Source: Bacteroidaceae bacterium
GTDB lineage: Bacteria; Bacteroidota; Bacteroidia; Bacteroidales; Bacteroidaceae
Direction: 5' to 3'
Assembly: GCA_017617235.1 (NCBI GenBank)
Contig: JAFZWQ010000025.1
Span: forward strand, 1-64,000
DNA: 64,000 nucleotides
The notes under the pieces were generated by a model. The model saw only the letters and a list, made by a program, of their open reading frames with translations, was not told the DNA's origin and did no database searches. The number at the start of each line of letters is the position of its first letter. Position 1 is the first letter of the stretch. Shown here piece by piece: positions 2,891 through 58,306 of the stretch. The translations under genes and the position numbers were made by a program.

Positions 2891-4247
2891 TTAGTTGCTC
2901 AATGAGTTCGGCGGGGGTGACAAGCTGCTGTTGGCCCGTTTCCATGTCCTTCAGCGTAACGCGTCCCTCGGACATCTCGTTCTCGCCGACAATGGCGACG
3001 AAAGGCACCTGCTTCTGGTTGGCATACTGCATCTGCTTCTTCATCTTCGCCGCATCAGGATAGATTTCGCAACGGATACCTGCCGCACGGGCCTGCGCCA
3101 GAATGGGCAGACAGTAAGCGGCTTCGGCCTCGCCAAAGTTGATGAAGAGCAACTGGGTGCTGGTGGTGACGGTTTCGGGGTACAGTTCCAACTGGTTCAG
3201 CACATCGTAGATGCGGTCGGCACCAAACGAAATACCCACACCTGACAGACCCGGCATGCCGAAGATACCCGTGAGGTTGTCGTAGCGTCCACCACCTGTG
3301 ATGCTGCCAATCTCGACGTCGAGAGCCTTCACCTCAAAAATGCAGCCCGTATAGTAGTTCAGACCACGAGCCAGCGTGAGGTCAAACTCTAATGGACAAT
3401 TGAAACTGGACAATTGACAATTCTTGAGGACGAAGGACACTTCGTCGATACCCTTCAGACCGATTTCGCTGTCCTTCAGCACTTGGCGCATGGTCTGTAG
3501 CTTTTCATCGTTCGTACCGCTGAGGTTGATGATGGGTTGCAGTTTCTCGATGGCCTCGTCGGGCAATCCGGCCTCGCGCAGTTCAGCATTCACATTGTCG
3601 AGTCCTATCTTATCAAGTTTGTCGATGGCTACCGTGATGTCCACAATCTTGTCGGCCTGACCAATGATTTCGGCTATGCCGGTGAGAATTTTGCGGTTGT
3701 TAATCTTGATGCAGACACGAATGCCGAAGCGACGGAACACCTCGTCGACAATCTGCATCAGTTCCACCTCGTTCAACAGAGAATCCGAACCCACAACGTC
3801 GGCATCGCACTGATAGAATTCGCGATAGCGTCCTTTCTGAGGACGGTCGGCACGCCATACGGGCTGAATCTGGAAACGACGGAATGGCAGGCTGAGTTCC
3901 TCACGATGCTGCACCACATAGCGGGCAAAGGGCACAGTGAGGTCGTAGCGCAGGCCCTTCTCGCACAGGCGAGTAGCCAGTTTATTCGAGGAATCCTGAT
4001 GGATATTCTCGTCCGTAACACCTCGCATAAAATCGCCTGAGTTCAGTATCTTGAATAGCAGTTTGTCGCCTTCCTCGCCGTATTTGCCCATCAGGGTCGA
4101 GAGATTCTCCATAGCGGGAGTCTCGATTTGCTGGAAGCCGTACAGCGCATAGACGCTGCGAATAGTGTCGAAAATATAGTTGCGACGGGCCATCTCTACA
4201 GGACCAAAGTCCCTGGTTCCCTTAGGTATGCTGGGTTTCTGTGACAT
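2880..4247 (-). CDS. hisS: Histidine--tRNA ligase
   Basis: 455 residues, class II aminoacyl-tRNA synthetase. Motif 2 is the [23 protein letters not shown] region. The HisRS-specific ARGLNYYTG signature and the GGGRYDNL plus GISFGADRI motif 3 region are present, followed by the anticodon-binding domain. It charges tRNA-His in the cytoplasm. Oddity: just before the [14 protein letters not shown] block, the segment [11 protein letters not shown] (codons at about 3392-3426) is encoded by a 7-bp-period array. Its N-terminus [16 protein letters not shown] is canonical. Confidence 0.97.
3392..3440. repeat. 7-bp-period array inside hisS
   Basis: Units ATGGACA, ATTGAAA, CTGGACA, ATTGACA, ATTCTTG, AGGACGA, AGGACAC run without a break in period. 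The reading frame stays open across them, because three 7-bp units equal seven codons. The encoded segment sits in a loop just before the HisRS signature. Confidence 0.6.
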
Positions 4248-4259
4248 CGTGATAATTTA

Positions 4260-4313
4260 CGATTTAACGATTTACAATTTATTTTATGATTTAATGATTT
4301 TGGTGCAAAGATA
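4260..4313 (-). promoter_or_regulatory. hisS promoter -10-like box and 5' UTR array
   Basis: TATCTTTG at 4313-4306 is a clear Bacteroidetes -7 box; no good -33 TTTG is seen at the right spacing. The leader down to the ATG at 4247 contains CGATTTAA, CGATTTAC and related octamers (4260-4299), which resemble the 8-bp CG arrays. Confidence 0.55.
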
Positions 4314-4368
4314 CAATAATTAAATTAAATACGTGGCATCGGAGGAGCGAAAACATTACACAAGGGCC

Positions 4369-6897
4369 TTAGAACGGGTATCCGACAGCCAAGTGGAAGC
4401 CCAGAGAGTCCCAGAACTTGGTCATGTTGTAGTAACCCGACTTGCCCGTTTCGTAGGGAGCATGAACGCCCACACCGATGTCGAATCGAATGACCAGAAA
4501 GTCGAGGTCGTAACGCAGGCCGAAACCCGTTCCCAGAGCTATCTCCTTGCCCATAGTTTTGGGATTGATGCTACCACCCGGACGGTTACTATCGGGTTTC
4601 ATCAGCCACACGTTACCCGCATCCATGAAAATGGCGCCACCCAGGTCGCTGACCAATGGGAAGCGGTATTCCAAATTGGCCTCCAACTTAAGGTTACCCA
4701 TCTGGTCGAGATAGCTGTAACTGGAATTTGCCGGATGGTAACTACCCGGACCTATGGTGCGCACGCCAAAGGCACGAATGCTGTTGGCACCACCGATGGT
4801 GAACAGGTCGTTGTAGGGAGCCACGCGACTGTTGCCGTAGCTGTAGATGACGCCAGCAAACAGGCGACCAGCCAAGTAGGTGTGGGTATGTCCGATACGA
4901 TATTGCTGGGTGTATTCGGCCGTCAGTCTCACGTACTGGGCAAAGGGCACGCCGAAGAGGTGCTTGTTTTTCTGGCTCAGCGGCTTTCCACCCATTCGAT
5001 ACAGCACGCTGGTCAGGTTACCGGCCTCCTTCAGGGAGAAGGTGATTCGCCGTTTGTGGTGTGTGCTGTTGGGATTAGTGAGAGTAATGGTGTACTGTGC
5101 CGAAGGTACGAACTGGTCACGCAGCGAGGCATAAAGTGCTGGACTTACCTTCACGATTGAGTCGAACTTGGCAGTCGTATGCAACTGTTTCTCATAGTCG
5201 AGACGGAAAGGCACCACCTCGTGCAGAATTCTCGGTTTGCGCTGGTAGGTATGCGACACACGGGCTCCGAACGAGACACGGTTGAAATAAGCCGAACGGT
5301 TTATCCAGTCGGCACTGATCTTGTACGTCGTCGTGGCCTTCGCTCTGCGGTTGAAGTATTTACCCAGTCCCAACAGGAGCAAACGCGGATAAGAGAGGTT
5401 CATGGACGTACCCCATTCGAACGAGTTCATAACACGGCGATTGCCGCGTGCCTGGGCTCCCGTCATCCATTCGTACGAGCCATAGGCCTCCAGGCTGAGG
5501 GTCTCGGCTCCGCGGAACACATTCTGCTTGGACATCGTAAAGCTGACGCCCGGTCCTACCAATCCGTTACTCTTGCCTGCTATGTTCCCCTTGAATTCTG
5601 CGGTATAGGGTTTATCGAGACGAGCCGTAATCTCCACATCCAACGTGTCGCAGGTAGCCGTTGTATCACGCGGAACGTAGCGCATACTCAACTGCGAGAA
5701 GATGCCCATCCCCACCAGATTATTCTGAACTGCTTCCTGCACTTTTTGGCTGTAGAGGTCACCCCTGCGGTACGAGATGAAACGTCGTATGGCATTCATC
5801 TTCAGTGGTGTATGTCCTTCGCGACCTGTATAAGCCATCGTCACGCTGCGTCTTCCGATGGTGTCCACCAGTTCCTGCTTTCCGTATTCATAGACATTGA
5901 TGCGGGTGCGACCCAGATAGTACTGACGACGGGCATTGTCGGGCGTTGTGGGCGACGGTACCACCTGCAACTGAACGAATTGCGGATGAGCAACAGTATC
6001 AGCCCGATAGACAATGTTTTCGGGACGGAAGTAATAGAATCCATTATTGCGAAATACATCGCTCAGGCGTTTGCGTTCCTCGTCGAGGTTGGGTACGCTG
6101 AAGGGGTCGTTCCGATGCAGCACCGTCCAACGCATGCTGCTGTGTATCAGGGAATCGGCCTTCTGGGGAAAATTCAAATAAGCAATGCTGTCCAAATGGA
6201 AAAGTTCGCCAGGATGCACCTCGTAGGCAACCTTTGCCTTGCGGGGATGTTTCTGGGGAATGGTATCGAAAGAAACCTGTCCACGGAAGTAGCCGTAGTT
6301 GCGCAGAGTGTTCTGCGCCACCTGAGTGCGAACACGCGGATTCACGGTAGTCAGCGTGACAGGTGTGGCGGCAAAGGTGTTGAACATCCACTTGCCAAAG
6401 CGTTTCTTGCTGTAAAGATACTTGTTATAGGTCCATAGGCCAACGGCTAACGGCTGACGATAGTACGACGAACCCATGAGCGAGTTGTTGGGTTTATAAG
6501 CCAGCACGCCTTCCACCTCGCTCTTGGCCGTAGCATAGGCCTCGCGATTCTTCTTTGGGTTAAGGGTTAAAGGAGAAGGGTTGACGGCTAAAGGCTTATC
6601 CAGTTCTTTTGACTTCGGACTTTCGTCTTTTGTCCCTGTAAGGTAGTCGGAAACAGTATTATAGGCATTGCCCAGGGCAGTGATAACACCCGTTGTATCC
6701 CCTTTTTCCTGCTCGGGTTTGGGCATTTTGTCATACGATACTCGCTTGATACCGGTGTACAGAACCTCGCCCTCGGCAAGGTTCTTCGTCTCAGAACAAG
6801 AGAAAATAAGGAATTGAGAAATGGAGAGCATGAGGAGGCAGAACAACTTTGTTGTCCACCTTCTTTCAAACCATCTATGTCGTAATTCCTTCCTCAT
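4369..6897 (-). CDS. tamL: TamL: BamA/TamA-family outer membrane lipoprotein
   Basis: 842 residues. The N-terminal signal ends at a lipobox (FLIFSC, Cys34), so it is lipidated. POTRA-like repeats fill the middle (about 180-400). The C-terminal half is an Omp85 beta-barrel with the ANSIRAFGVRTIGPG motif and a terminal Phe (AVGYPF). In Bacteroidetes this lipidated TamA relative pairs with TamB in moving proteins or lipids to the outer membrane. The start codon overlaps the tamB stop by four bases (ATGA), so translation is probably coupled. A linker at about residues 89-114 (PKSKELDKPLAVNPSPLTLN) is encoded by 7-bp-period arrays. Confidence 0.9.
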   Translation of the reverse strand: MRKELRHRWFERRWTTKLFCLLMLSISQFLIFSCSETKNLAEGEVLYTGIKRVSYDKMPKPEQEKGDTTGVITALGNAYNTVSDYLTGTKDESPKSKELDKPLAVNPSPLTLNPKKNREAYATAKSEVEGVLAYKPNNSLMGSSYYRQPLAVGLWTYNKYLYSKKRFGKWMFNTFAATPVTLTTVNPRVRTQVAQNTLRNYGYFRGQVSFDTIPQKHPRKAKVAYEVHPGELFHLDSIAYLNFPQKADSLIHSSMRWTVLHRNDPFSVPNLDEERKRLSDVFRNNGFYYFRPENIVYRADTVAHPQFVQLQVVPSPTTPDNARRQYYLGRTRINVYEYGKQELVDTIGRRSVTMAYTGREGHTPLKMNAIRRFISYRRGDLYSQKVQEAVQNNLVGMGIFSQLSMRYVPRDTTATCDTLDVEITARLDKPYTAEFKGNIAGKSNGLVGPGVSFTMSKQNVFRGAETLSLEAYGSYEWMTGAQARGNRRVMNSFEWGTSMNLSYPRLLLLGLGKYFNRRAKATTTYKISADWINRSAYFNRVSFGARVSHTYQRKPRILHEVVPFRLDYEKQLHTTAKFDSIVKVSPALYASLRDQFVPSAQYTITLTNPNSTHHKRRITFSLKEAGNLTSVLYRMGGKPLSQKNKHLFGVPFAQYVRLTAEYTQQYRIGHTHTYLAGRLFAGVIYSYGNSRVAPYNDLFTIGGANSIRAFGVRTIGPGSYHPANSSYSYLDQMGNLKLEANLEYRFPLVSDLGGAIFMDAGNVWLMKPDSNRPGGSINPKTMGKEIALGTGFGLRYDLDFLVIRFDIGVGVHAPYETGKSGYYNMTKFWDSLGFHLAVGYPF
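6557..6633. repeat. 7-bp-period arrays inside tamL linker
   Basis: Units at 6557-6598 are GGGTTAA, GGGTTAA, AGGAGAA, GGGTTGA, CGGCTAA, AGGCTTA. A second run at 6606-6633 is CTTTTGA, CTTCGGA, CTTTCGT, CTTTTGT. Both are in frame and encode a low-complexity linker between the lipidated N-terminus and the first folded domain. Confidence 0.6.
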
Positions 6898-25281: not shown

Positions 25282-25321
25282 CGAAATGTCGTTATAACGC
25301 TATTCCGATACAACGTCAGGG
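25282..25321. repeat. 8-bp-period CG array across the DPP III stop codon
   Basis: Octamers CGAAATGT, CGTTATAA, CGCTATTC, CGATACAA, CGTCAGGG run in exact 8-bp register. The last residues of DPP III and its stop codon (25300-25302) are inside. Same architecture as 2851-2890. Confidence 0.6.
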
Positions 25322-27234
25322 TTTTCTTTTCCATACCTTAGCATCTGCTCGTCATACTTTTCTCCGTATTCAATCTCCACATCCACAATCTCACCATTTT
25401 TGTTACGTACCGCATGATATCGTGGATTTATGAAACCCTTGTAGGGAGCCAGATCAAGGGCACGATAGCGGCGCAACATTTCCTCGTGCAACGCAGCATC
25501 CACCTTCACACCATAGTTTTCGACAAGGTCGCGGGCTGCTTCATAGTCACCTTCACTCTTTATGCGCTGCACCTCGGCCAACAATCTGCCGACCACAGGT
25601 CGCAACGCCGCATAGTCGGATATTACGAGGTATGATTTCTCCCCTTTTTCCACCTCCATCGCACCATTGCTATGCTCCATCACCCAACGGGCTATGAGGG
25701 CACGGTTGCGCATATGTGCCTCTTCAATCTGTCTGCCTGGTTCTATGCGCACAAGTTGGGTCAGCAATCCATTCATCATATAGCTGTAATACTGACTTTT
25801 ATAAGCCTCCATATTGGGTACCAGTCGCAGTTCCGCCATCTTCGGGTCGGCTATATAATAGAGCGCAAACAAGTCGGCACGCGCTTCTTCTATAGTGCTG
25901 CCATACGCCTTCAGGGCATCGGGATCAACACCTGGCAACAACTTTCCGCTACCGTGTCCCAAACATTCGTGCAAATCGGTATGTAAATCGTCGAGAGCCT
26001 CATCGTATTTATCCAGCAATTGAAGCGTTTCCACATCCGCTACAAACTCCTGACGGAAACCATTTCCCTTTGCCGCCTCAGCATAGGCATGGGTCAGGTT
26101 ACCAATCGTCACACTCTTGCTGCCATGTTCCTGACGCACCCAATTGCTGTTGGGAAGATTAATGCCGATGGCACTGGCTGGATACAGGTCACCACCCAGA
26201 ATTGCAGCTTCTACCACCTTTGCCGTAATACCACAGCATATCTCCTTCTTGAAACGCGGGTCAACAGGACTATGGTCTTCGAACCACTGCGCATTATCGC
26301 TGAGTTGCTGGGTTCGCCACGTTGCTTTGTGGTCCTTCAGGTTTACATAACCTTCCCATGAAGCCTTTAGGCCCAACGGGTCGCCATACACCTCCGTAAA
26401 GCCGTTGGTAAAGTCCACCTCGCTGGCAGTTTCCATTACCCACTGGATAGTGTATTGGTCAAATGTCGACAAATCGCCTGTCTGGTAGAAATCTATCAGA
26501 GTATCTATCACCGCTTGCTGGGCATCGTTCTCTGCTACCTCTCTGGCCTGTCGAAGCCAATAGATAATGCGGTCTATCTGCTTCCCGTACATTCCCCCGC
26601 TCTTCCATACGCGTTCCACCAACTGCCCCTTCTCATCATGCTCCAAACGGCTGTTCATTCCGTACATCACGGGATGGGGATTGTCCGTTTGTTTCATAGC
26701 ATTGTAGAATTGTTCAGCCTCGTTCTGACGGATATCCGGCGCGTAATAATTCATAGCCGAAGTCTGCAAAAGGTCCTCTCCGTCTTCCTGGCTCTCACGT
26801 TTCGGCAAGACGTCTGGATTGAAGATAACCTCCATCAGTTCTTCGTCGATAGGATAGCCTATCTCACGCAGTTTACCCTCCAGGAACTCACGACTGAACC
26901 CCGGCTGGAACTTATCCATCGAATAGTGATGGTGAATGCCGTTGGCAAACCACACCCTCTTCAAATACGTTTCAAACGCCTCCCACTCCCCTTCATTTTT
27001 AACTTTCCATTTCCCATTTTTCATTTCGACATACACAGCTTCAAGTATACGTCGAATGGGTAGGTTGTATCGACAGTTCTGATCCCACAGAATATCGCGT
27101 CCAGCCAAAGCTGCCTCGCTCAGATAATACACAAGAATCCGCTGTCGGGGCGTCAACGCCTCGAATCCCGGCACCTGGTATCTGAGCATTTGGATGTCGG
27201 CAAATCTTATATCGTTGTACTGAAAGTCAGTCAC
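25300..27234 (-). CDS. Dipeptidyl peptidase III (M49 metallopeptidase)
   Basis: 644 residues. The M49 zinc motif HECLGH is at 422-427, and the glutamate ligand lies in EEARADLFALYY about 27 residues later. It removes N-terminal dipeptides. The frame opens with GTG (27234), 4 bp after the AraC-gene stop, at MTDFQYNDIRFADIQMLRYQVPGF. Family members known to me in Bacteroides carry an exported lipoprotein leader before this point; none is present here, so the enzyme should be cytoplasmic. Residues of the segment VEMKNGKWKVKNEGEWEAF are encoded by a 7-bp-period array, and the C-terminus lies in an 8-bp array. Confidence 0.93.
   Translation of the reverse strand: MTDFQYNDIRFADIQMLRYQVPGFEALTPRQRILVYYLSEAALAGRDILWDQNCRYNLPIRRILEAVYVEMKNGKWKVKNEGEWEAFETYLKRVWFANGIHHHYSMDKFQPGFSREFLEGKLREIGYPIDEELMEVIFNPDVLPKRESQEDGEDLLQTSAMNYYAPDIRQNEAEQFYNAMKQTDNPHPVMYGMNSRLEHDEKGQLVERVWKSGGMYGKQIDRIIYWLRQAREVAENDAQQAVIDTLIDFYQTGDLSTFDQYTIQWVMETASEVDFTNGFTEVYGDPLGLKASWEGYVNLKDHKATWRTQQLSDNAQWFEDHSPVDPRFKKEICCGITAKVVEAAILGGDLYPASAIGINLPNSNWVRQEHGSKSVTIGNLTHAYAEAAKGNGFRQEFVADVETLQLLDKYDEALDDLHTDLHECLGHGSGKLLPGVDPDALKAYGSTIEEARADLFALYYIADPKMAELRLVPNMEAYKSQYYSYMMNGLLTQLVRIEPGRQIEEAHMRNRALIARWVMEHSNGAMEVEKGEKSYLVISDYAALRPVVGRLLAEVQRIKSEGDYEAARDLVENYGVKVDAALHEEMLRRYRALDLAPYKGFINPRYHAVRNKNGEIVDVEIEYGEKYDEQMLRYGKENPDVVSE
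26992..27026. repeat. 7-bp-period array inside the DPP III gene
   Basis: Units TTCATTT, TTAACTT, TCCATTT, CCCATTT, TTCATTT. In frame, encoding MKNGKWKVKNE on the minus strand, just before the conserved YLKRVWFANGIHHHY block. Confidence 0.6.
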
Positions 27235-27266
27235 TTACTTCTACTTTTTACTTTTGGTTTTCATGT
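27232..27266. repeat. 7-bp-period array at the AraC-gene end / DPP III start
   Basis: CACTTAC, TTCTACT, TTTTACT, TTTGGTT, TTCATGT. It encodes the C-terminal KTKSKK of the AraC-type regulator, its stop codon, the 4-bp spacer and the GTG start of DPP III. Confidence 0.5.
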
Positions 27267-34758: not shown

Positions 34759-34805
34759 TAATGAGTTCAAAATCCCCACTACTTATTGCCAAAGCATAAG
34801 AAAAG

Positions 34806-34840
34806 GGCTAACGACAAACGGCTAAAGGCTAACGACGAAG
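34806..34840. repeat. 7-bp-period array (GGCTAAC type), intergenic
   Basis: GGCTAAC, GACAAAC, GGCTAAA, GGCTAAC, GACGAAG in exact register between the leu promoter and the HepT stop. It runs straight into the 20-bp direct repeat at 34840-34859. Confidence 0.65.
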
Positions 34841-34859
34841 GGGGAATCAATAATCGTCA
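34840..34859. repeat. 20-bp direct repeat, left copy
   Basis: GGGGGAATCAATAATCGTCA, identical to 35693-35712, where it covers the last codons and stop of the small-peptide gene. The two copies bracket the MntA/HepT pair. Confidence 0.8.
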
Positions 34860-39810: not shown

Positions 39811-39845
39811 AACTAACGGCTAAAGGCGAATGGCAAAAGGCAAAA
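39811..39845. repeat. 7-bp-period array (GGCTAAA/GGCAAAA type), intergenic
   Basis: AACTAAC, GGCTAAA, GGCGAAT, GGCAAAA, GGCAAAA, upstream of the promoter at 39749-39780. Confidence 0.6.
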
Positions 39846-40105
39846 GGGTTTCCAATGGAGCGATGCGACGCTGGGGCGGAGGGATAGCAACCTTACTGCG
39901 ATAGGATAGTAACGCTTCGCTTGACACACAATTGTGTGACAAGGGAAGGGATAGTAATCCTAGGCAGGGAGGAATAGTAACGCTAGGCTTGTCACACAAC
40001 TGTGTGTCAAGAGACGCGACGCATCGTTACCGACGGAGCGTTGCAACGCTAAGCGGGTAGCGTTGGGACGCTAGACGGGTAGCGTTGGGATGCTACCTCG
40101 CGCTG
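39846..40105. repeat. Palindromic repeat cluster, copy 2
   Basis: This fills the 420-bp gap between the 1246-residue protein and the thioesterase. It contains the 14-bp palindrome AGCGTTGCAACGCT (40037-40050), and two 24-bp near-palindromes at 39920-39943 and 39988-40011 that start CTTG(A/T)CACACA and end TGTGTG(A/T)CAAG. Degenerate GTAGCGTTGGGACGCTAGACGG units follow. The cluster reaches the thioesterase stop codon. No gene is seen in it. Confidence 0.7.
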
Positions 40106-41973: not shown

Positions 41974-43521
41974 TTAATGTCCGGCACTCTGTATCATCCT
42001 CGCATTGGGCTCAGGTATGGGCACATAGCGGAAATAATGGTAATAGGTGCCAGGCAGACATTCCTCGTCTGGAACCTGCCCCTGGGTCTGCAGCAAGCGG
42101 TAGGCCTGGGCATAGGCGGCAGGCAGCGGATTGGGCAGCAGGTCGGGGAAGCCATGAACGACGGCGTTAAAATGCGGCAGATTCTTCTGGAGCAGCAGTC
42201 CACACAACAGGAAGTCGTAAACACGCCGACGATTGCATCGGGTGTTCTGCAACAGGCGCACCATCTCGGAATTGAAGGGATAGCCGCCCACGAAATTATC
42301 GGCACGCAGGGGAGTTTCGAACTTCACTTCCGTCCGCTGACGGGCCATGCGTTCGCGCTGCTCCCGGACAAAGCGACCATAGAAGGGCGCATGGTCGAGG
42401 ATGGTCAGAAACTTCTCGGCCACGTCGTATTCTCCTTCACGAATGGAGTAGTCCACCATCTGGGTGAGGGAAGAGAAACAACAGGCATCGGGCATCAGGA
42501 GAAAATATTCCTGGGCATGATGGAATGCCTCGTCCCACAGCTCCAGATTACGATAATAAAGACGGTTGAACTGACAAGTCAGCAAGTTACGTTCGTGATA
42601 ATAGAAGAACTCCTCTGGCGTATTAATGGAATAGGAGAACAGATTTTCGGGCAACGTGCCCATAGCACTCTCGGACAGCAACAGGTATTTCTGCATCAAG
42701 CCTGTGTGCATACGGCCACTCTCGCGAACGGCAACACGCATATCGTTCCAACGTTCCTCCTCTGCTGCATGCACCACGCGGAAGTACATATTCTGTTCGC
42801 GTAATTCCTCGCTCCACAAAGGCAATGCAGCATCTAGTGCCCCTGACTGGTAGCGGTCCTCAAAAGGAATGAAAGCAACACGCTGGCTATAGATGGGCGG
42901 CAACATGAGGGAACAGAACGCCAGCAACACTACGACTGCCACACGGCTGCGACCCTTATGTACAAACCACTCGACAGCGGCAAACAAGACGAACAGGGCG
43001 ATGAGAAACGGCATGCTGACCAACATATAGCCCAACGGCAATAGCAGGACGGCCCATGCCAGACGCGCCCACCAACGCGGCAAACGGCAATAGATCAGCA
43101 GCACGAAGGCCAATAGCAGCACCTGAAGCTGCATCAACAGCACAAAGGGCCATACACAAAGTAAGATGAGGGACGGCAGCAGGACCAGTAAGTCGAAACG
43201 GCGATTATTTGCAGGAAGCATCTGGCGCAGACATTGCACCGTAAGCCATGCGATGAGTCCCTGAATCAGGGCCCCTATTAGCGGCCAATGGAAGAATTGC
43301 GTCAACAAACTGGAAAGCCAGCTCGAGACAGCAGGCTGCATGGGAAGTTTGAAACGGAAATAATCGACCGTAAACAGAAAGAAGCTGTCGTCTTGCAGGG
43401 AAAGATAAGTATCGGTAAACCAACAGGACAGCGCCACATAGGGTAAGAGGCAAACGGCTAACGACGAAAGGCAAAAGGCCAAAGGCGATAGGCTAAAGGC
43501 TAAGGACTTATCTTTTTTCAT
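41974..43521 (-). CDS. Polytopic membrane protein with C-terminal soluble domain (DUF6057-like)
   Basis: 515 residues. The N-terminal half has about seven or eight membrane segments (residues 5 to about 215). The C-terminal half is soluble, with TPR-like helices (YFRVVHAAEEERWNDMRVAVRES.., FHHAQEYFLLMPDACCF.., YDVAEKFLTILDHAPFYG). The first hydrophobic segment LAFSLSPLAFCLSSLAVCLL is encoded entirely by a 7-bp-period array. The start overlaps the preceding gene by ATGA. It belongs with the PD40 and FAS1 lipoprotein genes in one unit. Function unknown; the family name is my best recollection. Confidence 0.65.
   Translation of the reverse strand: MKKDKSLAFSLSPLAFCLSSLAVCLLPYVALSCWFTDTYLSLQDDSFFLFTVDYFRFKLPMQPAVSSWLSSLLTQFFHWPLIGALIQGLIAWLTVQCLRQMLPANNRRFDLLVLLPSLILLCVWPFVLLMQLQVLLLAFVLLIYCRLPRWWARLAWAVLLLPLGYMLVSMPFLIALFVLFAAVEWFVHKGRSRVAVVVLLAFCSLMLPPIYSQRVAFIPFEDRYQSGALDAALPLWSEELREQNMYFRVVHAAEEERWNDMRVAVRESGRMHTGLMQKYLLLSESAMGTLPENLFSYSINTPEEFFYYHERNLLTCQFNRLYYRNLELWDEAFHHAQEYFLLMPDACCFSSLTQMVDYSIREGEYDVAEKFLTILDHAPFYGRFVREQRERMARQRTEVKFETPLRADNFVGGYPFNSEMVRLLQNTRCNRRRVYDFLLCGLLLQKNLPHFNAVVHGFPDLLPNPLPAAYAQAYRLLQTQGQVPDEECLPGTYYHYFRYVPIPEPNARMIQSAGH
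43449..43511. repeat. 7-bp-period array forming a signal/anchor segment
   Basis: Nine units: GGCAAAC, GGCTAAC, GACGAAA, GGCAAAA, GGCCAAA, GGCGATA, GGCTAAA, GGCTAAG, GACTTAT. On the coding strand, three units make a seven-residue hydrophobic repeat (LAFSLSP / LAFCLSS / LAVCLLP). Confidence 0.75.
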
Positions 43522-48500: not shown

Positions 48501-48535
48501 TCAATTGTCAATTTTCAATTATCAATTGTCAATTA
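48501..48535. repeat. 7-bp-period array (TCAATTN) between mmdC and mmdB
   Basis: Five perfect-register units TCAATTG, TCAATTT, TCAATTA, TCAATTG, TCAATTA; they fill almost the whole gap between the mmdC stop (48541) and the mmdB start (48498). Confidence 0.8.
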
Positions 48536-48540: not shown

Positions 48541-48978
48541 TCAGCCGATTTCGACGAGGGCGTCGCCCGACTGTACCTGAGCACCCTGCTGAACGAGGAT
48601 GGCCTTTACGGTACCATCGCTCTCGGCAGTGATGTTGTTGGCCATCTTCATGGCTTCCATCACGAGAAGTGTGTCGCCAGCCTTCACCTGGTCGCCTTCC
48701 TTCACATTGATGCTGGTGATGGTGCCGGGCAGAGGAGCCGTAATGGCAGTGCCTGCGCCAGTGGCAGCCTTCTTGGGGGCAGCAGCGGGAGCAGCGGCAG
48801 GAGCGGCAGCGGGAGCTGCAGGCTTGATGGGTTGAACCTTGGGAGCGGCTGCTGCATGTCCGGGAACTTCTACCTCATAGGCATTGCCGTTTACTGTAAC
48901 TGCCAGTTTGCCGTCTTCCTTTTCGTCGACGCTGGCCGTGTACTCTGCGCCGTCTATCTTAAACTTAAATTCATTCAT
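48541..48978 (-). CDS. mmdC: Biotin carboxyl carrier subunit of the decarboxylase
   Basis: 145 residues. An N-terminal beta segment is followed by an Ala/Pro linker (PAAPAAAPAAAPAAAP, about 53-68) and the biotinyl domain with EAMKM, Lys111 the biotin site. It carries CO2 from the carboxyltransferase MmdA to the membrane subunit. Confidence 0.94.
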   Translation of the reverse strand: MNEFKFKIDGAEYTASVDEKEDGKLAVTVNGNAYEVEVPGHAAAAPKVQPIKPAAPAAAPAAAPAAAPKKAATGAGTAITAPLPGTITSINVKEGDQVKAGDTLLVMEAMKMANNITAESDGTVKAILVQQGAQVQSGDALVEIG

Positions 48979-48984
48979 TTTTTT

Positions 48985-49044
48985 TCGAATTACGAGTTAC
49001 GAATTACAACTAATTCTCAATTTTCAATTTTCAATTCTCAATTT
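48985..49044. repeat. 7-bp-period array between oadG and mmdC
   Basis: TCGAATT, ACGAGTT, ACGAATT, ACAACTA, then (after 4 bp) TCAATTT, TCAATTT, TCAATTC, TCAATTT. Two sub-families of the same 7-bp period fill the gap, ending 2 bp before the oadG stop. Confidence 0.75.
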
Positions 49045-49045
49045 A

Positions 49046-49369
49046 TCAAAGTCTCTCGTTCAGTTCCTCGTGCCAGAGCGAATGTTCGTTGACATGGATG
49101 GTGAGCACACCACTCTCTTCGTCGTGACGTCCGTTCAGATAGAGGTACACGGCTGTGGCCACAGCTGCCTCGTCGGCTTTGGAAACTTTCTTCGTAGACT
49201 TGGGGGATGCAGTCGCCGTTGTAGAAGCAGGTTTTTCAGTCTTACCGCTTGCAACGTAGCTGAACACGCAGAGCACAAGAACGAGCAGCACCAGGATGGT
49301 AAATACCACGCCTACGCTGATGCCGGCCATCGTCCAGGCCTGTCCCCAGTCGGTTGTTAGTAAAATCAT
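49046..49369 (-). CDS. oadG: Sodium pump decarboxylase gamma subunit
   Basis: 107 residues: one membrane helix (GISVGVVFTILVLLVLVLCVF, about 17-37), then a Lys/Ser/Thr/Ala linker and a short C-terminal domain (EAAVATAVYLYLNGRHDEESGVLTIH). This fits the OadG/MmdD-type assembly subunit that holds the complex together. Confidence 0.88.
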   Translation of the reverse strand: MILLTTDWGQAWTMAGISVGVVFTILVLLVLVLCVFSYVASGKTEKPASTTATASPKSTKKVSKADEAAVATAVYLYLNGRHDEESGVLTIHVNEHSLWHEELNERL

Positions 49370-49377
49370 AATATTAA

Positions 49378-49510
49378 GACCCCCTCCTCATTTCCTCCCC
49401 GAGGGGAGGACGGAAATACATCGAGGTTTGGAGGATTTTGTTATTAGTTGATAAATACTTTTTTAATTTTAACTACTCCCCTCACCCGGGAGGGGTTAGG
49501 GGGTGGGGTC
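49378..49510. repeat. GACCCC...GGGGTC element between mmdA and oadG
   Basis: Starts GACCCCCTCC and ends GGTGGGGTC, with internal hairpins (CCTCCCCGAGGGGAGG and CTCCCCTCACCCGGGAGGGG). The element ends exactly at the base before the mmdA stop triplet (49511). Same layout as 52599-52706. Confidence 0.65.
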
Positions 49511-51200: not shown

Positions 51201-52712
51201 ATGGCACAATACGTACCCACAGAACTTGGCACGCGCAGTATTCCGCGACTACTTTTCCAGTATGCCGTGCCCGCCATCATAGCGATGACGGCGGCTTCGC
51301 TTTATAACATTGTAGACAGCATTTTCATTGGTCACATCGGGCCCGACGGCATGTGGGGAAACTCGGATGGCATGGCCATCAGCGGTTTGGCACTGACTTT
51401 CCCCCTCATGAACATCAGCATTGCGCTGGGCGCCATGGTGGGTGTGGGTGCCTCCACCGTCATCTCCGTCCGTTTAGGACAAAGGGAATACGATACAGCC
51501 CAGCACGTCCTGGGCAACACCGTGGTGCTGAACATCCTGCTGGGTGCAATCTTCATGGTTGCCTGCCTGCTTTACCTCGACCCCATCCTGATTCTTTTTG
51601 GGGCCAGCGACGCCACCCTGCCCTATGCCCGCGACTACATGACGGTCATCCTCTTGGGCAACGTCATCTCGCACAGCTATTTCGGACTGAATGCCGTATT
51701 GCGCTCGGCCGGACACCCACAGCAGGCCATGTACTGCACCATCCTGACGGTGGTCATCAACGCCATCCTCGACCCCCTCTTCATCTTCAACTTTCACTTT
51801 TCAATTTTCAATGGTCAATGGTCATTGGGCCTCGGATGGGGAATAAAGGGGGCAGCTGTCGCAACCATCCTGTCGCAGCTGGTTTCACTCATATGGCAGT
51901 TCAAGTTATTGAGTAACAAAAACGAGCTATTACACTTGCACAGAGGCATTTATGGTCTGCGTCCAACCATCATCCGCCAAATCATTGCCGTGGGCATGAG
52001 TCCTTTCCTCATGAACCTGTGCGCCTGCTTGGTCGTACTGCTTATTAATAAAGGTATGCTGCAATACGGTGGCGACGCAGCCATTGCGGCCTATGGCATT
52101 GTGAATCGTGTGGTGTTCCTGTTCATCATGATGGTGATGGGACTGAACCAGGGCATGCAACCCATCGTGGGCTACAACTGGGGAGCCAAGCAGAATCCAC
52201 GTGTTTGGCAAACACTTCGGCTCACCATCCTGTGTGCCGAAGTTGTCGTTCTTACAGGCTTCATCATGGGCGAGTTCTGTCCCCATGTGCTGACACATCT
52301 GTTCACGGACAACGAAGAAATCACCCTGATGTCCGACCATGGGTTCCGTATCGACGTTCTGGTATTCCCACTCGTGGGCATTCAAATGGTTATCGGCAAC
52401 TTCTTCCAGAGCATCGGTCATGCGGGTAAATCCATTTTCCAGAGCCTCACCCGACAGATGCTGTTCCTGATTCCCTTCCTGCTGATTCTGCCGCCCCGCA
52501 TGGGCTTGGATGGTGTGTGGTACTCCATTCCGCTCTCCGACCTGTGCAGTTTCTTCGTTTCCGTCGGCATGCTTTGGTGGCTCATCCGCAAAGTCAAAGA
52601 CCCCTCTCCCAACCTCCCCCGAAGGGGAGGAGTGAAAACTCAGGAGGTCGAGAAGATAACTAAAGAACATACTCCCTTCCCTCGGGAAGGGCAAGGGGAT
52701 GGGGTCATATGA
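51201..52712 (+). CDS. MATE-family efflux transporter
   Basis: 503 residues, twelve membrane segments. Typical blocks: GTRSIPRLLFQYAVPAIIAMTAASLYNIVDSIFIG at the start, ALGAMVGVGASTVISVRLGQ, DPLFIF, MMVMGLNQGMQPIVGYNWGA. Exports cationic drugs or metabolites using Na+ or H+. Two oddities: the loop after DPLFIF contains NFHFSIFNGQWSL encoded by a 7-bp-period array, and the last 37 residues (from DPSPNLPRRGG on) come from a GACCCC...GGGGTC repeat element. Its stop overlaps the next start (ATGA). Confidence 0.92.
   Translation: MAQYVPTELGTRSIPRLLFQYAVPAIIAMTAASLYNIVDSIFIGHIGPDGMWGNSDGMAISGLALTFPLMNISIALGAMVGVGASTVISVRLGQREYDTAQHVLGNTVVLNILLGAIFMVACLLYLDPILILFGASDATLPYARDYMTVILLGNVISHSYFGLNAVLRSAGHPQQAMYCTILTVVINAILDPLFIFNFHFSIFNGQWSLGLGWGIKGAAVATILSQLVSLIWQFKLLSNKNELLHLHRGIYGLRPTIIRQIIAVGMSPFLMNLCACLVVLLINKGMLQYGGDAAIAAYGIVNRVVFLFIMMVMGLNQGMQPIVGYNWGAKQNPRVWQTLRLTILCAEVVVLTGFIMGEFCPHVLTHLFTDNEEITLMSDHGFRIDVLVFPLVGIQMVIGNFFQSIGHAGKSIFQSLTRQMLFLIPFLLILPPRMGLDGVWYSIPLSDLCSFFVSVGMLWWLIRKVKDPSPNLPRRGGVKTQEVEKITKEHTPFPREGQGDGVI
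51784..51825. repeat. 7-bp-period array inside the MATE gene
   Basis: TCTTCAA, CTTTCAC, TTTTCAA, TTTTCAA, TGGTCAA, TGGTCAT: six units in frame, adding roughly a dozen residues between DPLFIF and the GLGWGIKGAA helix. Confidence 0.7.
52599..52706. repeat. GACCCC...GGGGTC element forming the MATE C-terminus
   Basis: 108 bp, begins GACCCCTCTCCC and ends GGGGATGGGGTC, with internal hairpins CCTCCCCCGAAGGGGAGG and CCCTTCCCTCGGGAAGGG. The MATE frame reads through it and stops 6 bp beyond, on top of the next gene's ATG. Confidence 0.7.
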
Positions 52713-53200
52713 AAAGAATTGGACTCCTTAGCGACACCCACGCCTGGTGGGACGACCGTTACCTCCACTATTTCGAGAAGTGCGACGAGATATGGCACGC
52801 TGGCGACATCGGCTCGATGGAAGTGGCCCAGCGACTGGCCGATTTCCGTCCGTTGAGGGCCGTCTGCGGCAACTGCGACGGGGGCGACCTGCGACGTCTC
52901 TACCCCACCCTGCTACGGTGGAACTGCGAGGGCGCAGACGTGCTGATGACCCACATCGGCGGCTATCCCGGGCGCTACGAGCCTGCCATCCGCCAACAGC
53001 TCTATGCCCGTCCTCCAAAACTCTTCATCTCCGGCCACAGCCACATCCTGAAGGTGCAATACGACGAACGCCTCCGCCTGCTCCACATCAACCCCGGAGC
53101 TGCAGGCATACAAGGCTGGCAACAGGTTAGAACCCTTGTCCGCTTTGTTGCCGACCAGGGTCAGTTCCGCGACCTCGAGGTCATCGAAATTCCCCGCTAA
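52709..53200 (+). CDS. YfcE/MJ0936-type metallophosphoesterase
   Basis: 163 residues with all metal-ligand motifs of the calcineurin-like family: SDTH (Asp9, His11), HAGDIG (Asp33), GNCDGG (Asn55), MTHIGG, GHSH near residue 109. Small phosphodiesterase; natural substrate unknown. Translationally coupled to the MATE gene through a 4-bp overlap, which exists only because the repeat element extends the MATE frame. Confidence 0.92.
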   Translation: MKRIGLLSDTHAWWDDRYLHYFEKCDEIWHAGDIGSMEVAQRLADFRPLRAVCGNCDGGDLRRLYPTLLRWNCEGADVLMTHIGGYPGRYEPAIRQQLYARPPKLFISGHSHILKVQYDERLRLLHINPGAAGIQGWQQVRTLVRFVADQGQFRDLEVIEIPR

Positions 53201-53222
53201 TACTTATTGATAATCAAAGAAC

Positions 53223-53257
53223 AAAGGCGCCATCCCCACCGGATAGCGCCTTTTTTC
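53223..53257 (+). terminator. Terminator of the MATE-phosphodiesterase unit
   Basis: AAAGGCGC and GCGCCTTT arms, followed by a T run (TTTTTT C TTC). A near-identical hairpin ends cysQ at 56451-56483 on the other strand. Confidence 0.85.
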
Positions 53258-53266
53258 TTCTCATTC

Positions 53267-53329
53267 TCTCAATTTCCCTTTGCCTTTCGCCCTTTGCCTT
53301 TAGTCGGTGGTCGGTGGTCGGGCGTCAGC
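53267..53329. repeat. 7-bp-period array (TGCCTTT to GGTCGGT)
   Basis: TCTCAAT-like start, then TTCCCTT, TGCCTTT, CGCCCTT, TGCCTTT, AGTCGGT, GGTCGGT, GGTCGGG, CGTCAGC in unbroken register; the unit sequence drifts completely along the array while the period stays 7. Confidence 0.65.
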
Positions 53330-53490
53330 CCAGCGTGACCGTGTAGCGTGAACTGCTGTGGAGCGATGCGACGCGCCTCTTGACACACAGCTGTGTGACA
53401 AGCGAAGCGATACTATTCCTCTGCGCCTAGCGTTGTAACGCTCCGCCCCTAGCGTTGGGACGCTCGGACGGTAGCGTTGAAAACGTGTTG
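53330..53490. repeat. Palindromic repeat cluster, copy 3
   Basis: Contains AGCGTTGTAACGCT (53429-53442) and one 24-bp near-palindrome CTTGACACACAG..CAAG (53379-53402), as in copy 2, and GCGTTGGGACGCTCGGACGG units. Confidence 0.7.
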
Positions 53491-53497
53491 AAAATCG

Positions 53498-53683
53498 TGA
53501 CAATGACAATGACATTATGACATTAAGGTGGTTTCGACACGTCGGACTTCAATGGTTATATTAATATAATAATTATATTATATATAAAATAATAATAATT
53601 ATAATCTATTATCTCTTTGGGTGAAATCGCGTCTCGTGAACGCTTGGAAGGTGCTTAATGTCACTTTGTCATTGTCATTGTCA
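53498..53683. repeat. MITE-like element with 30-bp inverted ends
   Basis: Left end 53498-53527 and right end 53654-53683 are inverted repeats matching 27 of 30, built on TGACAATGACAATGACA...TGACATTAAG. The inside (126 bp) is very AT-rich (TTATATTAATATAATAATTA..). No coding capacity. The right end is itself bracketed by GCTTGGAAGG (53642-53651) and CCTTCCAAGC (53696-53705). Confidence 0.55.
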
Positions 53684-54053
53684 TAATTCAGCCCCCTTCC
53701 AAGCTTATGTACATGCCTATTAATCAATAGAATAAACGTGGATGGATAAGGGCGAGAGGCTGGGGTGACGATTCGTTACTCTAGCGGAAGAAAATAAGAT
53801 GAGTCCCCGAAATGAGGACTCGTGAATGGAAAAGACAAAAACACCGTCGCGATTCGCGACACTAGTTCTAACTACAAGTCAAATACTATGTCCTTCCCAA
53901 GAAAAAGTTGAATGAATCTCATCTTCACCCCATACTTCCTCAGCATATTTAGATGCTGGACAAAATACTCTCTGATTCTTATTCCCTTCACGCGCCCATC
54001 AGACCTCTCCCCTCTATCATATATAACAGTATGGCAAACACGAAAATGTTACA
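53684..54053. other. Non-coding stretch upstream of the NERD gene 3' end
   Basis: No convincing gene. It contains a hairpin GAGTCC..GGACTC (53800-53822). The minus strand has an open frame without a usable start (about 53876-54040; ..GIRIREYFVQHLNMLRK..), possibly a decayed gene end. Nothing else recognised. Confidence 0.4.
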
Positions 54054-54845
54054 TTAATGTGCTATATATTTACATTTAGGATAATTAGAACAGCCAAAGA
54101 ATGTGCCATACTTACCTTTTCGTTTTACAAGGTGTCCACCGCACTTCGGGCATATGCCAGAATAGATGGTAGCATCAACTTTGTTTGTTGCCAATCGCAG
54201 GTTCATGGCATGCTGCCAGTCATCCACAAGCTCTCGAATATTGTTTTCTTCCAAGATACGAATGACTTCCCTGACATCAACATCCGTCAAATATACAGTA
54301 TTGTATCCTTTTATCAATTTCAATAGGCTGCTCTGGTAAACAACATGATATCTACTACGAACGTTGCTTAGTATGGCATCACCTGCAAATACTACAATAG
54401 GAACAATCTCAACATGAGGGAATGCTGATAAAATTTCTTTTATTCTCAAAGCATGACCAATAGATTGCTTGACTGGGTTGTAGAAGTGATTCTTCGTTAC
54501 ATAAGTGTAAGTCTTCCACCATTTCTTCGCATACGTCACATTTGTAATAATCATCTGCGTCCACTCCTGACGATTGTCATCTCCATAAATTTCGCCCCGA
54601 TAGTTTTTGGTCTCTATAGCAAAGATTCCATACTTAGAAACAACGATATGGTCTATTTGAGTCGTTCCTTTCTCAGTTCTGAAAACCAGGTCATTTAAAA
54701 CCGTATAATCACTTGGCAGTAGTGACAAAATAAAAGATATGCGTTTTTCCCCTCTTTTCCCTTTCTGACTTGCCGAGTTATACCAGGCAAGATAGGCAAA
54801 GAGTGCAACACCTAATATGGTTATCAGAAGGGTTATTAACTGCAT
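54054..54845 (-). CDS. NERD-domain protein with topoisomerase-type zinc finger
   Basis: 263 residues. Membrane helix at 4-23 (ITLLITILGVALFAYLAWY). NERD nuclease-related domain at about 30-150 (QIDHIVVSKYGIFAIETKNYRGEIYGDDNRQEW; the D and ExK triad is intact). C-terminal CxxC..CxxxxxC zinc ribbon of the topoisomerase I type (CPKCGGHLVKRKGKYGTFFGC then KC). Predicted membrane-anchored DNA-binding/processing protein; function unknown. Upstream lies a gene remnant and the DUF1016 gene. Confidence 0.9.
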   Translation of the reverse strand: MQLITLLITILGVALFAYLAWYNSASQKGKRGEKRISFILSLLPSDYTVLNDLVFRTEKGTTQIDHIVVSKYGIFAIETKNYRGEIYGDDNRQEWTQMIITNVTYAKKWWKTYTYVTKNHFYNPVKQSIGHALRIKEILSAFPHVEIVPIVVFAGDAILSNVRSRYHVVYQSSLLKLIKGYNTVYLTDVDVREVIRILEENNIRELVDDWQHAMNLRLATNKVDATIYSGICPKCGGHLVKRKGKYGTFFGCSNYPKCKYIAH

Positions 54846-56178: not shown

Positions 56179-56217
56179 ATATTCTTATATGTTATGCTTT
56201 TCATAGCGATTCCGCTT

Positions 56218-56249: not shown

Positions 56250-56279
56250 TTTTTGAGCAGCGAAAGCAGAGATATGCTT

Positions 56280-56450: not shown

Positions 56451-56483
56451 AAAAAGGCGCTGTCCGGGGTGGATAGCGCCTTT
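56451..56483 (-). terminator. Terminator of cysQ
   Basis: GGCGCT and AGCGCC arms; on the minus strand AAAGGCGCT..AGCGCC is followed by TTTTTCTT. Confidence 0.8.
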
Positions 56484-56494
56484 GTGTTGTGTGT

Positions 56495-56510
56495 GGGGGG
56501 GGGGGGGGGG
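56495..56510. repeat. G16 homopolymer after cysQ
   Basis: Sixteen G on the plus strand between the cysQ stop (56518) and its terminator; the transcript carries a C16 tract. Confidence 0.7.
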
Positions 56511-56517
56511 AAGGAGA

Positions 56518-57339
56518 TTAGCAGACGAGGAACCAGGGATTGTGGAGGTCTTCCTTGTTGTATTTCAGGGGTAGGTCGGTACCTGCCTGATATACCCACC
56601 TGCCGGCACAGGCGGCAATGGCGTGACCGGCTGCGGTGTCCCACTCCATGGTGGGGGCATAGCGGGGATAGGCATCGGCCTTGCCCTCTGCCACCAGACA
56701 AATCTTCAGGCTGCTGCCCGAGGAGATGATGTCCACCTCGCCGTGTTGCTTACGTGCATCCTCGATAAACTGTTCCGTTTCGGGGCTCATGTGACTGCGG
56801 CTGGCCACAATGGTATAGGGACGTCCATCGGGTTGTGGCAAGGGCAGGCGCTGGGCACGTGCTATGAGGTCGGGCAAGCGTTCCTCGCTGTCCCACGATT
56901 CGATGTTCTCGACCTTGTATGCGCCCAAAAGGGGCTCTGCAAAATACAGTTCCTTGCGGGCAGGAACGTAGATGACGCCCACATGGGGGTGGGTATCGAG
57001 CACAAGGGCAATGTTCACGGTGAATTCCCCGTTACGCTTGATGAATTCCTTGGTTCCATCCAACGGATCTACCAGCCAGAAAGCGTCCCACAGGCTGCGT
57101 GTCTTGTAATCGCAATGCTCGCCTTCTTCGCTCAGAATGGGCAGTCCCGTTTCCCACAACATACCCGTAATACGGTGGTGGGCAGCTCTATCCGCCAACG
57201 TCAGCGGAGAATTGTCGGCTTTGCGTTCAATCCCAAAATCCTGATTGGGGTCGGTATAAATCTTCATGATGTCCTGTCCTGCAGCCAATGCGGCACGAAT
57301 GGCCACGCTGAGGACGGACTTTAGTTTGTTTTGCTCCAT
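56518..57339 (-). CDS. cysQ: 3'(2'),5'-bisphosphate nucleotidase (CysQ-type inositol monophosphatase family)
   Basis: 273 residues from MEQNKLKSVLSVAIRAALAAGQDI; a start 7 codons earlier would fall on the promoter box. Metal ligands in SEEGE (70-74), DPLDGTKEF (91-99) and WDTAAGHA near 236 are intact. CysQ dephosphorylates PAP in sulfate assimilation and sulfotransfer recycling. It stands alone, with repeats on both flanks. Confidence 0.93.
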   Translation of the reverse strand: MEQNKLKSVLSVAIRAALAAGQDIMKIYTDPNQDFGIERKADNSPLTLADRAAHHRITGMLWETGLPILSEEGEHCDYKTRSLWDAFWLVDPLDGTKEFIKRNGEFTVNIALVLDTHPHVGVIYVPARKELYFAEPLLGAYKVENIESWDSEERLPDLIARAQRLPLPQPDGRPYTIVASRSHMSPETEQFIEDARKQHGEVDIISSGSSLKICLVAEGKADAYPRYAPTMEWDTAAGHAIAACAGRWVYQAGTDLPLKYNKEDLHNPWFLVC

Positions 57340-57357
57340 AAATTCGATTTTCGAGTA

Positions 57358-57402
57358 CAAAGGTAATATTTTATATTGAAAATTGAAAATTTAAAATTGA
57401 AA
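57358..57402 (-). promoter_or_regulatory. cysQ promoter next to a 7-bp-period array
   Basis: TACCTTTG at 57365-57358. Immediately upstream are ATTGAAA, ATTGAAA, ATTTAAA, ATTGAAA (57375-57402). The -33 position falls inside this array, so unit number could alter promoter strength. Confidence 0.6.
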
Positions 57403-57560
57403 ATTCTCGCACAGCGAGCGACTATGTCGGTTACTTGCTCCTCTGCGCTACGCAAGCGACTACGTCGATTACTCGCACAGCGAGCGACTACGTCGGTTAG
57501 AAGATTGAAAATTTAGAGCAACGAGAGCAGTGCCTGTCAATTAGAAAATGGGAAAAAAGA
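57403..57560. repeat. CTCGCACAGCGAG repeats upstream of cysQ/ruvA
   Basis: A 28-bp direct repeat starting with CTCGCACAGCGAGCGACTA at 57406-57433 and 57472-57499 (one mismatch); its front is a CTCGC-ACAG-CGAG hairpin. Between them CGGTTACTTGCTCC...TACGCAAGC (57428-57457) is the inverted relative of 56380-56410. The 302-bp gap 57340-57641 has no gene. Confidence 0.6.
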
Positions 57561-57641
57561 GGCTTTTAGGATTCGGATTTACAATATTTGGGCGTCGCGC
57601 GCGTTATTATAAAGGAATTAACGCGTAAAAAAACGACAAAA

Positions 57642-58235
57642 ATGATAGAATACGTACGTGGGACATTGGAAGAACTGACACCGACACTGGCCGTTGTCGA
57701 TTGTCAGGGTGTAGGCTATGGACTGAACATCAGCCTGGGCACATTTTCTGCCATTCAGGGAAAGCGCGAAGTAAAGCTCTTTGTTTACGAGGTGATTCGC
57801 GAGGATGCGTTCCAGCTGTGGGGTTTTGCCACGAAGAGCGAACGCGAGTTGTTCCTGCAACTGACCAGCGTCAGCGGCATCGGTGCAGCAATGGCCCGTA
57901 TGATTCTCTCCGCTTTCTCGCCTGCTGAACTGGTGGAAATCATCAGCATGGGCAACGACCGTGCCCTGAAAGGTGTGAAGGGAATAGGCCCAAAGGCCGC
58001 ACAGCGTGTCATCGTGGACCTGAAGGACAAAATCCTGGGTCTGGACATCGCCCCAACAAGCACTGTTGCCCAGTCGTCCGTCGTGAACCAGGAGACGCAG
58101 CAGGAAGCCGTTGCCGCACTGACCATGTTGGGCTTCAGTCCTGCCCCATCGGCCAAGGTGGTTACGAAACTGCTGTCGGAAGACCCCACGATGCCCGTGG
58201 AGCAAATCATCAAGCAAGCGCTGAAAATGCCATAA
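57642..58235 (+). CDS. ruvA: Holliday junction branch migration protein RuvA
   Basis: 197 residues from MIEYVRGTLEELTPTLAVVDCQGVGYGLNIS; the frame is open to 57588 but that extension is not family-like. The OB domain is followed by helix-hairpin-helix motifs (LTSVSGIGAAMARMIL, LKGVKGIGPKAAQRVIVDLKDK) and the flexible linker to domain III (AVAALTMLGFSP). It holds four-way junctions for the RuvB motor. It is directly upstream of sprA, a neighbour pair I know from other Bacteroidetes. Confidence 0.96.
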   Translation: MIEYVRGTLEELTPTLAVVDCQGVGYGLNISLGTFSAIQGKREVKLFVYEVIREDAFQLWGFATKSERELFLQLTSVSGIGAAMARMILSAFSPAELVEIISMGNDRALKGVKGIGPKAAQRVIVDLKDKILGLDIAPTSTVAQSSVVNQETQQEAVAALTMLGFSPAPSAKVVTKLLSEDPTMPVEQIIKQALKMP

Positions 58236-58243
58236 AAATGACA

Positions 58244-58306
58244 AGTGAAAAGTGAAAAGTGAAAAATGAATAGTGAAACATGAGAGGTGAAAAATGAGAG
58301 GTGAGA
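58244..58306. repeat. 7-bp-period array holding the sprA start codon
   Basis: Nine units: AGTGAAA, AGTGAAA, AGTGAAA, AATGAAT, AGTGAAA, CATGAGA, GGTGAAA, AATGAGA, GGTGAGA. The sprA ATG (58294-58296) is inside the eighth unit, and codons 1-4 (MRGE) are encoded by the array. ATGs in earlier units are in other frames and stop within a few codons. Confidence 0.8.

Follow-up and report, generated by a model that had tools for sequence, protein, structure and literature searches.

Tandem tracts with a 7-bp period form a class of repeat that is spread over Bacteroidia but patchy, and their excess over other periods is real, with period 8 as a clear second. We favor, with moderate confidence, the reading that these tracts are heptanucleotide simple-sequence repeats, which originate as tandem copies made on the spot, preferably in steps of 7 nt, are blurred by point mutation and are mostly functionless.

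The tracts were noticed in a window, that is, the whole 64-kb stretch of DNA analyzed here, which comprises the first 64 kb of a 91-kb contig in a draft genome of 2.54 Mb (50 contigs, 85.5% complete). Its membership in Bacteroidales was supported by an L13-Bacteroidia leader, by the presence of TamL and by the relatives of its HisRS; the leader and TamL also rule out a cyanobacterial origin, which the heptads had initially suggested. An Rfam search of the window at the gathering score yielded a tRNA and the L13 leader and nothing else, and GCGATCGC had 0 occurrences in the 64 kb. The HisRS of the window was nearest to those of uncultured Bacteroidales and Bacteroidaceae genomes from ruminant and other animal guts; in the HisRS tree, the row of a same-genus genome (G021) was identical to Candidatus Physcousia equi, which indicates that the window belongs to the genus holding that organism. 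One genome per species was used in the comparisons.

Excess of period 7 in the window, its genome and relatives

The original prediction listed 13 sites in 7-bp register, at each of which the score of the lag-7 self-match segment was compared with those in the window after dinucleotide shuffling (30 shuffles). Beyond chance were 12 of these sites, with at most 0.13 matches expected per 64 kb, and nine of these had 0 matches in the 30 shuffles (Table 1). The remaining site, 27232-27266, lay at chance level (2.87 expected per 64 kb in the same 30 shuffles) and thus had no 7-bp register beyond chance; it fitted lag 6 slightly better than lag 7 (0.59 vs 0.54).

Table 1. Heptad tracts in the window, with the start listed in the original prediction, the segment score and the chance expectation from 30 dinucleotide shuffles.
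Tract	Strand	Listed start	Score	By chance	Context and units
3391..3422	-	3392		0.13 per 64 kb	within hisS (2880-4247, minus; NCBIfam TIGR00442); earlier-noted site extends to 3440
6557..6598	-	6557		0.03 per 64 kb	N-terminal side of tamL (4369-6831 or 6897)
26992..27026	-	26992		0.03 per 64 kb	N-terminal part of peptidase M49 gene (25300-27234)
34803..34846		34806		0 in 30 shuffles	between called genes 34697 and 34861
39813..39847		39811	15.5	0 in 30 shuffles	between called genes 39672 and 40093
43449..43503		43449	20.5	0 in 30 shuffles	GGCTAAA-like units
48501..48534	-	48501	19.5	0 in 30 shuffles	sense AATTGAY
48983..49043	-	48985	10.5 and 20.0	0 in 30 shuffles	two heptad runs, 48983-49007 and 49012-49043
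51786..51828	+	51784	21.0	0 in 30 shuffles	within MATE transporter gene (51201-52712; NCBIfam TIGR00797)
53273..53321		53267	14.5	0 in 30 shuffles	73 nt past YfcE-like gene (52709-53200)
57366..57405		57375	20.5	0 in 30 shuffles	ATTGAAA; upstream of cysQ (56518-57339)
58236..58308	+	58244	23.5	0 in 30 shuffles	AGTGAAA; after gene ending 58235

For the counts across periods in this section, a harsher segment score was used with a cut of ≥12, unless a cut of 11 is stated. The window contained 8 segments at lag 7, compared with 0-1 at lags 2-6 and 8-13 and a mean of 0 at lag 7 in 5 dinucleotide shuffles; lags 14 and 21, both multiples of 7, had 6 and 5 segments, lag 28 was raised too, and the 3 segments at lag 22 came from another repeat. 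In twenty 20-kb stretches of the same genome (400 kb), lags 7, 8, 9 and 6 had 32, 18, 10 and 2 segments, respectively, with 0 in one shuffle of each stretch. Among 17 genus mates (400 kb), the corresponding counts were 18, 6, 2 and 4, and lag 7 led among periods 2-20; a longer-unit repeat raised lag 22 to 22 segments, above lag 7, and lowering the cut to 11 still left 10 of the 20 stretches with no lag-7 tract. Eighty named Bacteroidales loci (1.396 Mb) had 74, 17, 11 and 5 segments at lags 7, 8, 9 and 6, respectively, with 0 at lag 7 in shuffles and 47 of the 80 loci without a tract; L158 coincides with G021 in the HisRS tree, and the unnamed and named sets may share further genomes. The genome-wide excess of 7 bp over 6, 8 and 9 bp that had been anticipated was therefore borne out by the scan of 400 kb of the genome itself and of its relatives. 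Calling the period "strict" proved too strong, since period 8 lay well above chance in the window's genome; the step is mostly, not strictly, seven.

The distribution over lineages was uneven. Isolates, separated by eye from the record titles, carried 1 tract in 204 kb (10 loci), compared with 73 in 1192 kb for the other 70 loci, and nine hisS loci from other families of the order (38.6 kb) had 0 lag-7 tracts. Elsewhere in the class, 15 stretches of 20 kb each from other families had 13 tracts, or 15 at a cut of 11, with 7 of the latter in one genome, G073. These 7 lie in a single 20-kb stretch (L287, G073:C1:2870001-2890000) of this single-contig 5.1-Mb genome. Five stretches from other classes of the phylum had 0 tracts, and 50 kb of E. 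coli K-12 had 0 tracts at periods 4-12.

Other repeats were noticed nearby. Tandem arrays of 22-23 bp occur in the window at 1516-1575, 40037-40095 and 53419-53479, as well as in L024 (12030-12129), L022 (3634-3787) and L016 (8178-8273), with semi-palindromic units consisting of AGCGTTGGGACGCT plus a spacer and GGATTACTATTCC plus a spacer; lag 22 was the commonest lag in the genus mates. When the first 3 kb were compared with the own genome by blastn, 38 of 50 matches hit 1472-1585, some of them being the two strands of one place. In unit length and habit, these arrays are reminiscent of the Porphyromonas gingivalis BrickBuilt MITE with its 23-nt repeats, as described in excerpts of PMC4596501. 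Elements of about 180-220 bp were also seen, with about three direct 6-8-bp units, an AT-rich core and the same unit inverted. One of them, at 53480-53700 with TGACAA ... TTGTCA as its units, has an 82% second copy at G000:C39:19296-19486 (L238) and matches in 4 of 41 genomes, and a Prevotella genome from red deer holds an element of visible similarity (L205 12795-12995); elements of similar plan are found at L009 11303-11481, L012 11166-11354 and L010 8108-8311. Its predicted fold is much more stable than those of its shuffles (z -5.3, 0 of 200), and both sub-threshold matches of a lax Rfam search of 53200-54060 fell outside it. By its appearance, it is a small element, mobile or structured, with ends built of short repeats. 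In the oadA-oadG gap (49370-49510), a block of about 80-160 bp with GACCC...GGGTC-like inverted ends appears MITE-like; by eye, it recurs in other gaps of the oad operon in L104, L110, L111, L114 and L115 and more loosely in L113 and L116, and the own genome holds 18 matches including itself, with one other nearly full length and the rest confined to the ends.

Tract location and turnover at orthologous sites

Genes and their starts were called by a simple caller trained on this DNA. Tracts lie predominantly outside called genes (37 of 47 in the window plus 400 kb at a cut of 11, compared with 533 of 5000 random positions), and many fill short gaps between co-directional genes, which have a median length of 49 nt in the own genome. 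The tract at 43449..43503, for example, takes up most of the gap from the gene end at 43437 to the next start at 43518. In the oad operon, with genes assigned by Pfam, the tract at 48501..48534 fills the gap between the biotin-carrier gene (48541-48978) and oadB (47212-48498), and the two runs in 48983..49043 fill that between the oadG-like gene (49046-49369) and the biotin-carrier gene. The plus-strand gene following 58236..58308 has a called start at 58321, and judging by eye from relatives, translation may in fact begin within the tract. Beside the end of cysQ, 16 consecutive G at 56495-56510 were noted as a possible slippage site.

Within called genes, period 7 was at or near the top among periods 4-11, with 9 segments in the own genome (2 at period 6 and 8 at period 9), 4 in the genus mates (3 and 1) and 19 in the named loci (2 and 3), although coding sequence would be expected to favor period 6 or 9. 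The hisS tract of the window falls in a length-variable HisRS loop ahead of the conserved DLTLARG motif; this loop is variable in relatives as well. The tamL tract precedes the stretch matched by the TamL model (NF052279, residues 115-842), and that in the peptidase M49 gene lies outside the Pfam match (PF03571, best stretch 208-435).

Presence and absence of tracts turned over at orthologous sites. Among 19 oad operon loci of the genus, the gap upstream of the biotin-carrier gene was readable in 17 genomes, 7 of which had a lag-7 segment (score ≥8) and 10 had none. The units differed among the genomes, namely AATTGAR and TAATTCG in that of the window, GAGTTAA/GAATTAC in G011, AATTCAT/AATTGAC in G012, TTTAAAG in G007 and TTAAACA in G018, with weaker segments in G013 and G020. 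Upstream of oadB, 2 of 18 readable genomes had lag 7 (that of the window and, as a short run, G013) and 3 of 18 had lag 8 (G004, G002 and G015), and upstream of oadG, G013 had an 80-nt tract reaching the ATG. In G020 and G022 (L030 and L032), the loci that match 57366-57405 and 58236-58308 had no lag-7 counterpart scoring ≥10. Overall, an orthologous partner was obtained for 25 of 148 tracts, and a tract was present on both sides in 39 of 324 pairs, at least 9 of which represent one genome counted twice (flanks 100% alike).

The HisRS loop was followed in 110 loci, two of which (L188 and L211) were without the anchor. A tract (score ≥9) was found before DLTLARG in 9 of 108 rows, that is, 8 species once a duplicate is subtracted; the tract of the window itself, scoring 7.5, falls under this cut. 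At lags 5-12, the only period besides 7 was 9, in one row. On a quick HisRS tree built without the loop (L066 omitted, being the genome of L159), the 8 species need 7 state changes, at least 5 by starred branches, compared with 7.8 on average for shuffled labels, which indicates that the trait is hardly clustered. In several relatives, the loop was by eye equal in length and differed from the tract by point changes only; tracts thus fade by substitution as well as by length change. A second HisRS tract, shared by the Prevotella-like L163, L166 and L168 at a flank identity of 86-95%, was likewise equal in length with substitutions only. Among the genus mates, HisRS insertions near residues 256-290 were also seen in G017:C38:23249-24691, G018:C13:7711-9114 and G019:C9:8559-9977, some of which are not heptad tracts.

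Unit sequence and origin of the tracts

A search across rotation and strand gave the unit consensus ARTTRAR over 132 tracts, with a fit of -5.68 per tract compared with -6.40 to -6.44 in three column-shuffled controls. For the genus-mate tracts alone (n=18), the difference was only slight (-5.17 vs -5.22 to -5.71). The own genome had the consensus AAAAKTG, equivalent to AKTGAAA, in agreement with the unit form NNYDAAA given in the original prediction. Units are more alike within a genome than between genomes (4.33 vs 4.02 with shuffled labels, sd 0.08, 300 label shuffles), also when the window's genome is left out (4.256 vs 3.956). The earlier description of the units as freely varying was therefore too strong, as they cluster on ARTTRAR with one dialect per genome; the drift of units within a lineage-wide class of preferred 7-bp period stood up. 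In tracts of ≥28 nt, unit identity decays from 0.858 between neighbors to 0.738 five units apart, as predicted by stepwise copying plus mutation.

Among 181 tracts scoring ≥10, 66 had 4-5 units and 25 had 6 or more, and the 4-5-unit mode is partly a detection effect because three-unit tracts that have become blurred fall below the cut-off. After masking of the tracts, duplications with two copies (exact runs ≥8) were no commoner at lag 7 than at other lags: 3 vs 0-3 in own non-coding DNA, 1 vs 0-2 in the mates and 14 vs 5-19 in the named loci. Weak lag-7 segments (score 6-8) exceeded the mean of five other lags by about 10, 12 and 7 in the three sets.

We infer the copying error itself and, from the counts, its preference for 7 nt. 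A local error with a preferred step of about 7 nt, be it slippage during replication or a switch of template, would create short tandem tracts, often of 4-5 units, whose units would then be blurred by point mutation, so that the period outlives the unit. Such tracts would persist where harm is least, in intergenic gaps and variable protein loops, and the A-rich consensus and genome dialect may reflect the seeds and compositions tolerated or favored in each genome. Tandem duplication is supported by the excess of period 7 in four data sets and by the variation in unit, length or presence at orthologous gaps and in the HisRS loop. MutS-type repair does not act on loops as long as 7 nt, so that units of more than about 4 nt survive more easily; this limit does not single out 7. 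No function is required to account for the tract data.

The suggestion that the tracts reflect "not simple slippage of one motif" was partly upheld: slippage followed by point mutation also yields drifting units, but slippage from random seeds would predict a pool of two-copy precursors, of which there was no clear sign. The lack of a clear pool, together with the 4-5-unit tracts, the likeness of units within a genome and the frequency of period 7 in genes, where single 7-nt steps break the frame, speaks against plain slippage. The lack of a clear two-copy pool and the in-gene tracts would fit a birth of several units at once, and block writing or copying (by template switching, gene conversion or an unknown element), in which tracts spread within a genome without growing from two copies, therefore stays a live rival, which we nevertheless regard as unlikely. 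The tract sizes, the within-genome likeness and the in-frame hisS tracts are in its favor, but by eye the matches between loci cover the tract and share no flank, and part of the likeness comes from neighboring tracts (N194, N159 and N233), as some of the alike pairs are adjacent. It is similarly improbable, though conceivable, that Bacteroidales possess a copying process with an intrinsic 7-nt step that writes about 4-5 units in one go, between and inside genes, with the unit derived locally or from tracts elsewhere in that genome, and that proteins such as HisRS gain new loop sequence from the tracts; writing in one go would make period 7 common even where the reading frame is endangered.

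A role as translation signals, namely A-rich leaders with stops in all frames between operon genes, seems more doubtful still. Among the 74 co-directional gap tracts of all three sets, 29 end ≤15 nt before the next called start, 21 of these 29 (counted from the list) are A-rich on the mRNA strand, and 38 of the 74 have three-frame stops on the mRNA strand, compared with 21 of 74 on the other, an excess that selection could explain. Nevertheless, 401 of 656 tract-free leaders are likewise A-rich on the mRNA strand, so that most of the bias in orientation near starts is shared by leaders in general; the short gaps partly oblige tracts to lie close to starts, and the 10 genomes without a tract before the biotin-carrier gene also speak against such a role. 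The structural need proposed earlier was unsupported: neighboring pairs among 152 tracts had inverted partners in 3 of 18 cases, a count on which hairpin arms were rejected, and the A-rich tract strand and the G-rich locus strand gave no clear replication-strand signal (78 to 65). Chance, base composition or an assembly artefact, for which the one listed site at chance level might be cited, has a negligible probability, and several controls refute it as an account of the whole class, namely 0 segments in dinucleotide shuffles at score 12 and lag 7 in all four data sets, the presence of period 7 in coding sequence and the 7 tracts of the single-contig G073. Local tandem duplication with mutation thus remains the preferred reading.

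Comparison with known heptanucleotide repeats

In these genomes, tandem 7-nt units exceed both chance and the neighboring periods, the property by which heptanucleotide simple-sequence repeats are recognized, with the genus mates exceptional in that lag 22 was higher. According to the citations of Mrazek 2007 in excerpts of PMC4679880 and PMC4692102, 7 nt is the commonest unit of prokaryotic long simple-sequence repeats, which are mostly intergenic and for which slippage was proposed, and 7 nt perhaps corresponds to the DNA stretch contacting the polymerase; the preference has been a puzzle since that survey. The Bacteroidales tracts share the 7-nt unit and the mostly intergenic location and belong to this already reported class. 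They differ in that the repeats of that survey are longer than expected, with units in multiples of three likeliest inside genes (cited in PMC4679880), whereas ours are blurred, have drifting units and show period 7 in genes. The literature searches made found no paper on drifting-unit heptads in Bacteroidales. This animal-gut lineage offers many tracts, tract-bearing and tract-free sister species, and an essential gene, hisS, with turnover at one loop; for annotators, the tracts account for unusual gene junctions and loops of low complexity in such genomes.

Other systems resemble the tracts in part, as far as excerpts of the respective papers describe them. The TAACTGA direct repeats of Beggiatoaceae, Cyanobacteria and five Bacteroidetes genomes (PMC4679880), for which a translation role was suggested in Beggiatoaceae, are also 7-nt, intergenic, often just upstream of a start and bear three-frame stops, but have one fixed unit where the Bacteroidales units drift. 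Identity with them was rejected, as the doubled unit had no exact match in 293 loci and none at ≤2 mismatches in the window. The degenerate heptads of variable copy number in Nostoc tRNA-Leu introns (PMC3488679) are similar in these respects, but pair into a hairpin in one intron, whereas inverted partners are exceptional here; the window has no tRNA intron. Likewise, in Xanthomonas and Nostoc, GGGAATC and GGGGA(C/T)T heptamers (PMC4692102) form many intergenic tracts with variable units and lengths, but are G-rich and quadruplex-capable, in contrast to the mostly A-rich Bacteroidales tracts. In a 2025 survey, Bacteroidota are among the bacterial phyla of high short-tandem-repeat density (PMC12699852), and some of the commonest bacterial satellite families derive from heptamer and hexamer repeats (PMC6749651). 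Finally, the tandem repeats of archaeal Borgs (PMC9879509) are, like the tracts described here, fast-evolving, A-enriched, of independent origins and located within as well as between genes; they are near-perfect and have in-gene units in multiples of three, whereas the Bacteroidales tracts carry 7-nt units into genes.
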